From assembly GCA_903940225.1 (NCBI GenBank), contig CAJAKC010000009.1, forward strand, positions 1-64,000: a DNA stretch of 64,000 bases. Direction: 5' to 3'. Position numbers and translations under genes: made by a program. Of the stretch, positions 31,831 through 35,547 are shown piece after piece. The notes beneath the pieces were generated by a model that was not told where the DNA came from, ran no database searches, and worked only from the letters and a program-made list of their open reading frames with translations. Within the stretch, counting starts at the first letter, position 1, and each line of letters opens with the position of its first letter. The stretch comes from an uncultured Microbacteriaceae bacterium. Lineage in GTDB: Bacteria; Actinomycetota; Actinomycetes; Actinomycetales; Microbacteriaceae.

Positions 31831-31846
31831 CCACAAGATATGGGGT
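31831..31846. promoter_or_regulatory. NrdR box-like site 1
   Basis: CCACAAGATATGGGGT, 12/16 to acaCwAtATaTwgtgt; 32 bp from site 2. Confidence 0.6.
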
Positions 31847-31862
31847 TCTTGCCCAAACGACA

Positions 31863-31878
31863 ACCGAACATATAGTGT
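31863..31878. promoter_or_regulatory. NrdR box-like site 2
   Basis: ACCGAACATATAGTGT, 13/16 to acaCwAtATaTwgtgt; 32 bp from site 1. Confidence 0.68.
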
Positions 31879-31968: not shown

Positions 31969-34407
31969 ATGGCCATCACGGTCGTCAAGCGCAACGGGGC
32001 ACGCGAGCCCTACGACGCCAACAAGATCAACCTTGCTATCGAGGAAGCCGCCGAAGGCTTCCCCGACAAGCTCGCGTGGGTGACCCAGATTGGCACCGAA
32101 CTCGAACTCACCCTGTTTGATGGCATCACCTCGCAGCAGCTCGACGAAGCCGTGATTCAGGTCGCACTCCAGAACGTCAAGGATGACCCCGGATTCGACC
32201 AGATCGCCGCGCGCCTGTTGCTCAAGACCATCTACAAGAGTGTCCTCGGAGACTACAACTCGGCCGAGGAACTCAAGAGCCTGCACGCGCAACACTTCGA
32301 GGCGAACATCCGCCGCGGTGTCGACGAAGGGTTGCTCGACACGCGCTTGGCGGAAATGTTCGACTTTGACACCCTGGCCAAGGAACTCGAGCCCAACTAC
32401 GACGAGCTCCTCAAATACATCGGTGTTGTCACGCTCAACAACCGCTACGGCGTCAAGGGACGCAACGGCGACCCGCTCGAGGTTCCCCAGTACTTCTGGA
32501 TGCGCATCGCAATGGGCCTGTCGCTCAACGAAAAGGACCCGACAACCGTCGCCCTGCGGTTCTACCGCAAGATGGCCAGCCTCGAATACTTGGCGGCCGG
32601 TTCGACCCTCGTCAACGCGGGAACGTCGTACCCGCAACTCGCGAACTGCTTCGTTCTCGAAATGCAGGACGACATCGAGCACATCGCCAAGACCACCCGC
32701 GACGTCATGTGGCTGACAAAGGGCACCGGCGGCATCGGCCTCTCGGTCACCAAGTTGCGCGCCCAGGGATCACCCATTCGCTCGAACAACACCGTCTCGA
32801 CCGGCCCGATACCGTTCATGCACACCATCGACTCGGTTCTTCGCGCCATCTCGCGCGGCGGCAAGAAGTTCGGCGCCCTCTGCTTCTACATGGAGAACTG
32901 GCACCTCGACTTCCCCGAGTTCCTCGACCTGCGTCAGAACTCCGGTGACCCGTACCGTCGTACCCGCACCGCCAACACGGCCGTCTGGATTTCGGACGAG
33001 TTCATGAAGCGCGTTCAGAACGACGAGGACTGGTACCTCTTTGACCCGCTCGAGGTCTCGGACCTCAACGAACTGTACGGTGCCGAATTCTCGAAGCGTT
33101 ACGCGGAATACATCGCGCTCGCGGAAAAGGGTGAAATCGAGCTCTTCAAGAAGATTTCGGCGCGCGAACAGTTCAAGCAGATTCTCATCTCGCTGCAGTC
33201 GACATCACACCCGTGGCTGACGTGGAAGGACACGATCAACCTTCGTGCCCTCAACAACAACACGGGCACCATTCACTCGTCGAACCTCTGCACCGAAATC
33301 TGCCTGCCGCAGGACGCCGAGAACGTGTCGGTCTGCAACCTCGCGTCCATCAACCTGTCGACGCACCTCATCGACGGCAAAATTGATTTCGAGAAGATGG
33401 ACGAGAGCGCCCGCATCGCCGTGCGCCAGCTCGACAACCTCATCGACATCACCCGCTCGTCGGTGCACGAAGCGGACAAGGCCAACGCCGAGAACCGGGC
33501 CGTGGGCCTCGGGCTCATGGGCTTCACGGACATCTGCGAACGCCTGGGCATCTCGTACGAGTCCGAAGAGGCCTACGAGCTCATCGACGAAATCACCGAA
33601 CGCATTTCGTATTCGGCAATCGACGAGTCGACCAATCTTGCGCGCGAGCGCGGGGCATATGACAACTTCGCCGGTTCGCGCTGGTCGCAGGGACTCGTGC
33701 CGTTCGACTCGATCGACTTGACCGAGAAAGACCGCGGGGTTTCGATCGACATCTCACGCAAGACCCGTCTTGACTGGGATGCGCTGCGCACGAAGGTCAA
33801 GGGCGGAATCCGCAACGCGACCCTCATGGCCATCGCCCCCACCGCGTCGATCGGTCTCGTCGCCGGAACCACCCCCGGTCTCGACCCGCAGTTCTCGCAG
33901 ATCTTCTCGCGGTCGACCTCCAGCGGAAAGTTCCTCGAAGTCAACCGCAACCTCGTCGACGCGCTCAAGCAGCGCGGGCTGTGGGAATCAACTCGCGAAG
34001 ACATTCTCCGTTCGCAGGGGGACATCCAGTCGCTGCCGACGATTCCCGACGACGTCAAAGAGGTCTTCAAGACGTCGTTCCAGTTGTCGCCCTATGCGTT
34101 CCTCGAAGTTGCCGGTCGCGCTCAGAAGTGGATTGACCAGGCGATCAGCAGAAACATGTACCTCGAAACCCGCGACATCGACGAAATGGTCGATATCTAC
34201 ATGGGTGCATGGGAGCGCGGCGTCAAGACGACGTACTACCTGCACATGAAGCCTCGCCACACCGCCGAACAGTCGACAGTCAAGGTCAATAAGGCCGAGG
34301 ACATTGTCGAAGGAAACAAGAAGGGCTTCGGCGCATCGGCCGAAACCGCAGAACCGGTCGCCGCCGCTGCATCACCCCGCAAGGGCTTCGGCTTCGGTGG
34401 AGCGTAA
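31969..34407 (+). CDS. nrdA: Class I ribonucleoside-diphosphate reductase, alpha (large) subunit, NrdA type with ATP cone; lacks the C-terminal CxxC
   Basis: LANCFVLEM, SSNLCTEICLPQ, VSVCNLASINL, TTYYLHMKPRH; N-terminal ATP-cone; C-term ...SPRKGFGFGGA*. Confidence 0.96.
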   Translation: MAITVVKRNGAREPYDANKINLAIEEAAEGFPDKLAWVTQIGTELELTLFDGITSQQLDEAVIQVALQNVKDDPGFDQIAARLLLKTIYKSVLGDYNSAEELKSLHAQHFEANIRRGVDEGLLDTRLAEMFDFDTLAKELEPNYDELLKYIGVVTLNNRYGVKGRNGDPLEVPQYFWMRIAMGLSLNEKDPTTVALRFYRKMASLEYLAAGSTLVNAGTSYPQLANCFVLEMQDDIEHIAKTTRDVMWLTKGTGGIGLSVTKLRAQGSPIRSNNTVSTGPIPFMHTIDSVLRAISRGGKKFGALCFYMENWHLDFPEFLDLRQNSGDPYRRTRTANTAVWISDEFMKRVQNDEDWYLFDPLEVSDLNELYGAEFSKRYAEYIALAEKGEIELFKKISAREQFKQILISLQSTSHPWLTWKDTINLRALNNNTGTIHSSNLCTEICLPQDAENVSVCNLASINLSTHLIDGKIDFEKMDESARIAVRQLDNLIDITRSSVHEADKANAENRAVGLGLMGFTDICERLGISYESEEAYELIDEITERISYSAIDESTNLARERGAYDNFAGSRWSQGLVPFDSIDLTEKDRGVSIDISRKTRLDWDALRTKVKGGIRNATLMAIAPTASIGLVAGTTPGLDPQFSQIFSRSTSSGKFLEVNRNLVDALKQRGLWESTREDILRSQGDIQSLPTIPDDVKEVFKTSFQLSPYAFLEVAGRAQKWIDQAISRNMYLETRDIDEMVDIYMGAWERGVKTTYYLHMKPRHTAEQSTVKVNKAEDIVEGNKKGFGASAETAEPVAAAASPRKGFGFGGA

Positions 34408-34418
34408 GGAGAAAAGCC

Positions 34419-34499
34419 ATGAACCCAACTGACACCACCAACGATTACGTCGTGCCGATAGATCCGATGGATCTGTTGCAGTGCGAATCGTGCCAGTAA
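34419..34499 (+). CDS. Candidate 26-aa microprotein resembling the NrdA C-terminal redox tail (CxxC)
   Basis: ATG at 34419 with AAGGAG 7 nt upstream; MNPTDTTNDYVVPIDPMDLLQCESCQ*; different frame from nrdA; between nrdA and nrdB. Confidence 0.65.
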   Translation: MNPTDTTNDYVVPIDPMDLLQCESCQ

Positions 34500-34560: not shown

Positions 34561-35547
34561 ATGGGAATTCTCGGAACCGGAATCCAAGACGGACTGCTAC
34601 TCAAGCCCGTTCGCTACCAGTGGGCCATGGACCTTTACAACCAGGCGGTTGCAAACACATGGTTCCCCAACGAAATTCAGCTCGGCGAGGACATCGCCGA
34701 CTTCAAAAAGATGACCGATGAAGAACGCCAAGCCATCACGTTCCTCATGTCGTTCTTCAACCCGTCGGAACTGATCGTCAACAAGGCGCTCGCGTTCGGC
34801 GTCTACCCGTACCTCAACGCTGCCGAGGCGCACCTGTACCTCGCCAAGCAAATGTGGGAAGAAGCGAACCACTGCATGAGCTTCGAGTACATCCTCGAGA
34901 CGTTCCCCGTAGACCGTGAAAAGATCTACGCCCAGCACGTCGACCACCCGGCCATTGCCGCCAAAGAGGAATTCGAAGTCAAGTTCATCAAGCGCATGGC
35001 CGAACGAAGCCTCGACATCACCACCACCGAGGGCAAGCAGGACTTCGTCCGTAACCTCGTCGCATACTCGGTCATCATGGAGGGTATCTGGTTCTACACC
35101 GGATTCATGGTCGCCCTGTCGTTCCGTCAGCGCAACCTGCTCCGCAACTTCGGTTCGCTCGTCGACTGGATCGTGCGCGACGAGTCGCTGCACCTCAAGT
35201 TCGGAATCAACCTGATCCTCACGGTCCTCGAAGAGAACCCCGACATTGCCACGGCGGAGTTTGCGGACGAGATCAAGCAGATGATTCTGGACTCGGTTGT
35301 CATGGAAGAGGAATACAACAAGGCCATGATCCCCAACGGAATCCTCGGCCTCAACGCGGAATACATCACGCAGTACACCAAGCACATGGCCGACCGCCGC
35401 CTCGAAGAGCTCGGATTCGAAGCGCACTACAAGGTGTCGAACCCCGCGAAGTGGATGGCCGCAGCGAATGACACGCTGCAGCTCGTCAACTTCTTCGAAT
35501 CGACGAACACCTCGTATGAAGTCAACTCGGGAACGTCGAAGGTCTAA
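34561..35547 (+). CDS. nrdB: Class I ribonucleoside-diphosphate reductase, beta (small) subunit, class Ic-like
   Basis: Ligand motifs SELIVNKAL, MWEEANHCMSF, IMEGIWFYTGF, RDESLHLKFG; AAGGAG RBS; Phe at the radical-Tyr position. Confidence 0.95.
   Translation: MGILGTGIQDGLLLKPVRYQWAMDLYNQAVANTWFPNEIQLGEDIADFKKMTDEERQAITFLMSFFNPSELIVNKALAFGVYPYLNAAEAHLYLAKQMWEEANHCMSFEYILETFPVDREKIYAQHVDHPAIAAKEEFEVKFIKRMAERSLDITTTEGKQDFVRNLVAYSVIMEGIWFYTGFMVALSFRQRNLLRNFGSLVDWIVRDESLHLKFGINLILTVLEENPDIATAEFADEIKQMILDSVVMEEEYNKAMIPNGILGLNAEYITQYTKHMADRRLEELGFEAHYKVSNPAKWMAAANDTLQLVNFFESTNTSYEVNSGTSKV

Follow-up and report, generated by a model that had tools for sequence, protein, structure and literature searches.

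A class Ic-type ribonucleotide reductase operon with a putative detached redox-tail microprotein in Microbacteriaceae

Introduction

In ordinary class I ribonucleotide reductases (RNRs), the active-site disulfide of the catalytic subunit is reduced by a CxxC tail located at the C terminus of the same chain. Class I enzymes carry such double-cysteine C-terminal tails almost exclusively (PMC9669993). The nearest precedent for re-reducing cysteines that reside on a separate polypeptide and act in trans is the split class II enzyme NrdJa/NrdJb of Pseudomonas aeruginosa, whose C-terminal cysteines lie on a distinct subunit that is required in vivo (PMC4520616). NrdJb itself is folded and contains additional domains (PMC9669993). 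On the radical-generating side of class I enzymes, the residues at the first metal-ligand position and at the radical site covary in a manner that separates class Ic from classes Ia/Ib and Id, with the Glu/Phe pair constituting the class Ic signature and class Id pairing Tyr with Glu (PMC8463856). Tropheryma whipplei is among the organisms tabulated as having a class Ic enzyme (PMC4009431).

Here we analyze a 64,000-nucleotide stretch of DNA (the window) from a small-genome Microbacteriaceae bacterium, in which an nrdA-microprotein-nrdB operon is the only RNR of its kind that was found. The NrdAB proteins belong to the same family as those of T. whipplei and Microbacteriaceae class Ic enzymes (models NF005101 and NF007186), for which we found no paper describing a detached tail peptide. 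The existence of a separate gene and its co-occurrence with nrdA suggest a parallel with NrdJa/NrdJb. However, the P. aeruginosa enzyme is an AdoCbl-dependent class II RNR, whereas the window system is class I and its counterpart of NrdJb is a peptide of 22–30 amino acids, which, unlike NrdJb, occurs in several unlinked copies preceded by NrdR boxes and is also present on mobile elements. We consider it probable that the operon encodes an Mn/Fe-type class Ic RNR for which a free CxxC microprotein under NrdR control acts in trans as the reductant; the translation and redox function of this microprotein are predicted.

The window NrdB has the residues of a class Ic R2 protein

A preliminary description of the window had recognized a class I R2 protein in the open reading frame (ORF) at positions 34561–35547, with Glu as the first metal ligand, Phe at the tyrosyl-radical position and the other ligands intact, and had called it class Ic-type. 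The coordinates are correct, and each of these assignments is borne out by the comparisons given below. The relevant features are as follows.

34561..35547, + strand: nrdB, 328 aa, class Ic-type R2 (ORF call, Pfam, NCBIfam, alignment, tree and structure matches)
34768..34770, + strand: codon for Glu70, first metal ligand, Asp84 in E. coli (alignment)
34882..34884, + strand: codon for Phe108, radical site, Tyr122 in E. coli (alignment)

The encoded protein is a Ribonuc_red_sm member (PF00268, 8e-72) that scores 383 bits against the NCBIfam model NF007186 (cut-off 237). It was aligned with E. coli NrdB (from NC_000913.3), Chlamydia trachomatis NrdB (1SYY) and 6Y2N, which we take to be the R2 protein of Saccharopolyspora erythraea. 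In this alignment, E. coli residues W48, D84, E115, H118, Y122 and E204 correspond to W34, E70, E101, H104, F108 and E174 of the window protein, and F208, I234, D237, E238, H241 and Y356 correspond to F178, I204, D207, E208, H211 and Y319. The ferritin-like Glu and His metal ligands of R2 proteins are present (E101, H104, E174, E208 and H211), and all of the ligands and radical-transfer residues that were checked are kept except that Glu70 replaces Asp84 and Phe108 replaces Tyr122. These two residues lie 31 positions before Glu101 and four positions after His104, the spacings that had been given earlier. The Glu/Phe pair recurs in 108 of 109 NrdB ORFs from related loci, some of which overlap, indicating that the window residues are no sequencing accident; the single exception is a Tyr-type relative from another family, with Asp/Tyr. 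Membership of class Ia or Ib, which would call for an Asp first ligand and a Tyr at the radical site, is ruled out by Glu70/Phe108, and membership of class Id (Tyr/Glu) is ruled out by the Phe/Glu combination.

Among solved structures, the best sequence matches are C. trachomatis NrdB (6.6e-72) and 6Y2N (4.6e-62), with the E. coli protein far behind, and sequence, profile and fold searches all place the C. trachomatis entries 1SYY/4M1I nearest. The window NrdB is approximately 35–39% identical to the C. trachomatis (1SYY, 4D8F, 4M1I) and S. erythraea (6Y2N) class Ic proteins, with which it shares the Glu/Phe pair, the remaining ligands and the radical-transfer residues. An AlphaFold model of the window NrdB, made with 24 close relatives, is of low confidence (mean pLDDT 60) and serves as support only, its top 13 PDB matches all being C. 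trachomatis NrdB. In a maximum-likelihood tree, the window protein lies beside Glu/Phe proteins that include those of C. trachomatis and S. erythraea, and one branch (85/76) divides them from every Asp/Tyr row, a separation with moderate support and long branches. The alignment and phylogeny that had been suggested as a check therefore find no Tyr at the radical site and a placement outside the Asp/Tyr rows, and rule out assignment to a Tyr-radical clade. The Glu/Phe group in the tree is not a single clade, as two Glu/Leu proteins nest inside it. These two NrdB proteins (L221 and L222), from genomes of other families of the phylum (G246 and G225, respectively), pair a first-ligand Glu with a radical-site Leu, an alternative to Phe that likewise dispenses with the radical tyrosine.

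As a sequence class, the assignment of the window NrdB to class Ic is well supported by its residues, by its grouping with characterized class Ic proteins in the tree and by its nearest solved structures. Class Ic is already known, also from within the family (Tropheryma), and equivalog models exist in NCBIfam that both the window NrdA (NF005101) and the window NrdB (NF007186) pass. By homology, the cofactor is most likely Mn(IV)/Fe(III), with no tyrosyl radical. Sequence alone cannot tell metal choice, and a Tyr-radical-free protein with an Fe/Fe or Mn/Mn center in place of the class Ic Mn/Fe cofactor could also be envisaged. However, the Glu/Phe pair is the class Ic signature (PMC8463856) and the nearest characterized proteins are class Ic, such that a different metal center seems improbable. 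The NrdB finding by itself adds a further, ordinary member to class Ic; the new part is the putative detached, regulated and mobile redox tail.

A catalytic subunit without redox cysteines precedes a conserved small ORF

The preliminary description had placed this NrdB alongside a split NrdA, a point that proved both right and the more important half of the observation, with the redox tail corresponding to a separate, conserved peptide gene. Upstream of nrdB, the operon contains the following features.

31969..34407, + strand: nrdA, class I catalytic subunit, 812 aa, ATP-cone and barrel, ending ...PRKGFGFGGA (ORF, NCBIfam, Pfam and residues)
34240..34404, + strand: cysteine-free NrdA C-terminal tail ending in a [KR]GFG motif (comparison of linked loci)
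34407..34411, + strand: microprotein ribosome-binding site, AGGAG (read directly)
34419..34499, + strand: microprotein ORF, 26 aa, MNPTDTTNDYVVPIDPMDLLQCESCQ, putative detached NrdA redox tail (reading, motif and conservation)

The window NrdA keeps the active-site cysteines C227 and C456, the radical cysteine C441, N439, E443 and the tyrosine pair Y756/Y757. No cysteine follows Y757, and the redox cysteine pair that canonical class I NrdA proteins have in the same chain is absent. A cysteine-free tail is found in all 81 linked loci, and [KR]GF[GA] occurs near the C-terminal end in 91 of 92 split NrdA proteins (the E. coli NrdE row being set aside), where it might provide a possible docking site for the peptide. 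This arrangement differs from that of the Chlamydia and Saccharopolyspora class Ic enzymes in that the tail peptide is encoded separately within the operon and the window NrdA has no redox tail of its own. Against NF005101 the window NrdA reaches 1580 bits, and against the class II model TIGR02504 (NrdJ_Z) it reaches 382 bits, below the cut-off; an AdoCbl-dependent class II identity is ruled out by the class I scores, which are by far the best, and by the presence of nrdB in the operon. A second class I or II RNR that might do the work was also considered and is ruled out, as the 94%-complete genome gives a single Pfam hit to NrdB and a single one to the NrdA/NrdJ barrel.

The microprotein ORF begins 11 bases past the nrdA stop codon and has its own Shine-Dalgarno site. 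Its product, MNPTDTTNDYVVPIDPMDLLQCESCQ, looks like the missing NrdA redox tail. The first set of relatives comprised 29 loci, one of which (L008) is cut by a contig end; each of the 28 with upstream sequence has an ORF of the same kind ahead of nrdB. A comparison of distinct microprotein sequences (83 linked, 74 standalone) shows no change in the CxxC cysteines, the DPM core or the terminal Gln, with variation at third codon positions. The ratio of nonsynonymous to synonymous differences, relative to expectation, is 0.079 for linked and 0.047 for standalone copies, values that are descriptive because the pairs are related; amino-acid changes among single-base codon differences are thus approximately 13 to 21 times rarer than expected. 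By these measures, the ORF is under strong purifying selection at the sequence level. The ORF is short, and its counterparts are unannotated in most of the phages and in several of the plasmids examined, as might be expected if the locus encoded nothing more than an ordinary class Ic RNR followed by a chance ORF or a decaying remnant of the NrdA tail. Such an origin is exceedingly improbable given the strong purifying selection, a CxxC that does not vary in approximately 157 distinct sequences, the unlinked paralogues with NrdR boxes, and the occurrence of the ORF in every genome that has the split NrdA.

Could the CxxC tail nevertheless be joined to a portion of the NrdA molecules, through programmed frameshifting, stop-codon readthrough or reinitiation? 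Many linked ORFs do start in an overlapping stop/start (gap of −4 or −1), a geometry that is shared with frameshift sites. Against this, the distance from nrdA to the ORF in 81 linked loci ranges from −4 to +62 nt by a simple start-codon rule, and all three frame relations are seen, which speaks against fusion to NrdA by frameshifting; the ORFs also have their own starts, in the window with a Shine-Dalgarno site. In two genomes (G029 and G068) the linked ORF is absent, and the only copy found is unlinked, remote from the operon and behind an NrdR-type promoter of its own; in G029 it sits downstream of ACACTATATATAGTAG. As natural tests, both genomes indicate that a detached tail can work. Moreover, phages and plasmids carry the peptide without nrdA. 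Taken with the spacing data, these observations make an attached tail very unlikely, and favor a free peptide. A sequencing frameshift that splits nrdA artificially is ruled out, as the same split is present, with varied spacing, in dozens of genomes. One locus (L045, genome G023) has an nrdA without the usual stop codon that runs into the nrdB region in another frame; it may contain an assembly indel and was set aside.

The microprotein family has no match in Pfam, NCBIfam or PHROGs, and we found no report of a detached class I redox tail or of its peptide in the open-access literature.

The peptide co-occurs with the split NrdA and resembles a fused tail

The microprotein was detected in 50 of 50 genomes of the family that have this NrdAB and in 1 of 40 that do not (p=9e-25, 90 genomes). 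The single positive genome without this NrdAB (G013) is incomplete and belongs to the genus of the window. The class Ic RNR of Tropheryma is on record, and the detached-tail arrangement is very likely present in this organism as well (genome G029).

Outside the family, NrdA proteins with fused tails occur in f5, f8, f10, f19, f24 and other families. In the sister families f5, f10, f19 and f24, whose NrdB proteins are 76–80% identical to that of the window, the NrdA carries a fused, homologous tail (...VGGVACPVDPMERLQCESCQ), and the NrdA of f10 ends in the fused sequence DTEMVGGVACPVDPMERLQCESCQ. The free peptide aligns with the sister-family tail over up to 24 residues (D...VGG.A.PVDPM..LQC.SCQ), and is distinguished from the tail of an ordinary class I NrdA by being a separate gene with its own start and by having an unlinked copy with its own promoter. 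Because the tail is fused in the sister families, the split looks derived, and fission of the gene in the Microbacteriaceae line would be the simplest account. A loose tail pattern returned nothing else from 248 genomes drawn across the phylum, a set that samples thinly outside the family. The motif is also present in metagenome bins labeled Acidobacteria, Nanopelagicales and Cellulomonadaceae (L080, L098, L073 and L072), which might reflect either mis-binning or a wider spread.

These data also bear on whether the peptide might instead be a regulator or inhibitor of RNR, acting as a decoy tail or a redox sensor, with thioredoxin, NrdH or a low-molecular-weight thiol reducing NrdA directly. 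The separate NrdR-type control and the extra copies of the gene would fit such a role, and non-physiological dithiols can reduce the active-site disulfides of tail-less RNRs in vitro (PMC4520616). However, the peptide and the fused tail of the sister families have identical redox residues, the peptide is never lost in the 50 genomes with this NrdA, and the loss of cysteines from the NrdA tail coincides with the appearance of the peptide. On balance, a purely regulatory peptide is unlikely, and we favor a role in re-reduction of NrdA.

Standalone copies are associated with NrdR boxes

A motif scan of 85,462 genomes returned at least 117 stretches, approximately half of those listed having no nrdA or nrdB nearby. 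The standalone microproteins are approximately 27 amino acids long, typically MDNDNDTVGGYAVPVDPMDLLQCDSCQ, and are monocistronic, with a promoter region on one side and a terminator-like hairpin on the other. For the NrdR box, we take the consensus to be ACACWATATATWGTGT. Twin boxes score above every shuffle for 69% of standalone copies, compared with 0 of 87 linked copies; some standalone ORFs, in prophage or plasmid contexts, have no NrdR boxes. The window itself contains the following element.

31831..31878, + strand: twin NrdR-box-like sites in the nrdA promoter, CCACAAGATATGGGGT (31831–31846) and ACCGAACATATAGTGT (31863–31878), 32 bp from start to start

The site at 31863–31878 is the sole match to ACACWATATATWGTGT in the 64 kb (three mismatches), with at least one match present in 5 of 100 shuffles. 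The same twin arrangement also precedes standalone microprotein genes, and the genome of the window encodes an NrdR. Both kinds of copy are present in this genome, the motif occurring at positions 34461–34499 of the window and at G000:C45:91291-91329, where it is preceded by ACACAATATGTAGTGG ... CGATATAGTGTT. Most genomes have two microprotein copies, with a maximum of six. The presence of a second copy with NrdR boxes in most genomes implies that the dose of the peptide can be set independently of that of NrdA. Gene fission would have made a separately controlled component out of what was a flexible tail.

Proposed mechanism

We propose that the NrdB metal center, most likely Mn(IV)/Fe(III), oxidizes the NrdA cysteine directly, with the radical path running through W34, D207 and Y319 of NrdB and then through Y756/Y757 of NrdA. 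Each turnover would leave a C227–C456 disulfide in NrdA. As the tail appears to have been cut off by gene fission, the free peptide, which ends DPMDxLQC[DE]SCQ, would dock on NrdA, possibly by means of its conserved GGYxVPxDPMD segment and the [KR]GFG-rich end of NrdA, and would reduce the active site. The peptide might in turn be re-reduced by thioredoxin, a mycoredoxin-like protein or an NrdH-type redoxin, and the genome of the window encodes thioredoxin-fold proteins and one such redoxin. A stand-alone peptide performing re-reduction would offer a clean test of tail docking, of dose and of exchange with thioredoxin or NrdH.

For a large part of the family, we lean toward a more general reading, in which the obligatory electron-delivery arm of RNR is a free, NrdR-controlled CxxC microprotein (22–30 residues) acting in trans, and the copies on phages and plasmids control or boost the host enzyme.

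Phages and plasmids carry copies of the peptide

The viral distribution of the peptide was judged from INPHARED phage records. It is encoded by Pontimonas phage phiPsal1 and by Clavibacter phages CN1A and CMP1, and also by a phage recorded as Pseudanabaena phage Pan2. The latter is recorded as a cyanobacterial phage, which is at odds with the other hosts. The phage copies are located as follows.

MG835450.1, 4001-4066: phage microprotein (L201)
KF669650.1, 4001-4069: phage microprotein (L202)
GQ241246.1, 4001-4057: phage microprotein (L203)
ON968453.1, 3001-3075: phage microprotein (L204)

These four copies are mostly unannotated and lie near lysis or replication genes. Plasmid copies (L205, L206, L207 and L208) were found on Clavibacter and Leifsonia plasmids, three of the four being shortly upstream of genes for single-stranded DNA-binding proteins; mobile copies in general often adjoin holin or single-stranded DNA-binding protein genes. 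NrdA is absent from all eight phage and plasmid records examined, and the peptide must therefore serve the host enzyme, if any. Phages and plasmids probably carry these copies to raise host dNTP output.

One genome (G056) has six microprotein copies (L183, L192, L197, L198, L199 and L200), two of which precede genes for single-stranded DNA-binding-like proteins, and this suggests integrated mobile elements. Another copy (L199) overlaps, through TGATG, the start of a gene for an NrdH redoxin (96 bits, NCBIfam cut-off 86). This overlap suggests that NrdH can reduce the peptide.

The gene is tiny, mostly unannotated and one that mobile elements may use to raise the host dNTP supply. Such peptides have been overlooked or misnamed as RNR subunit beta, an annotation that the present analysis corrects; a Leifsonia plasmid copy (WP_223361114.1, 33 aa), for example, appears in RefSeq under the name ribonucleotide-diphosphate reductase subunit beta.
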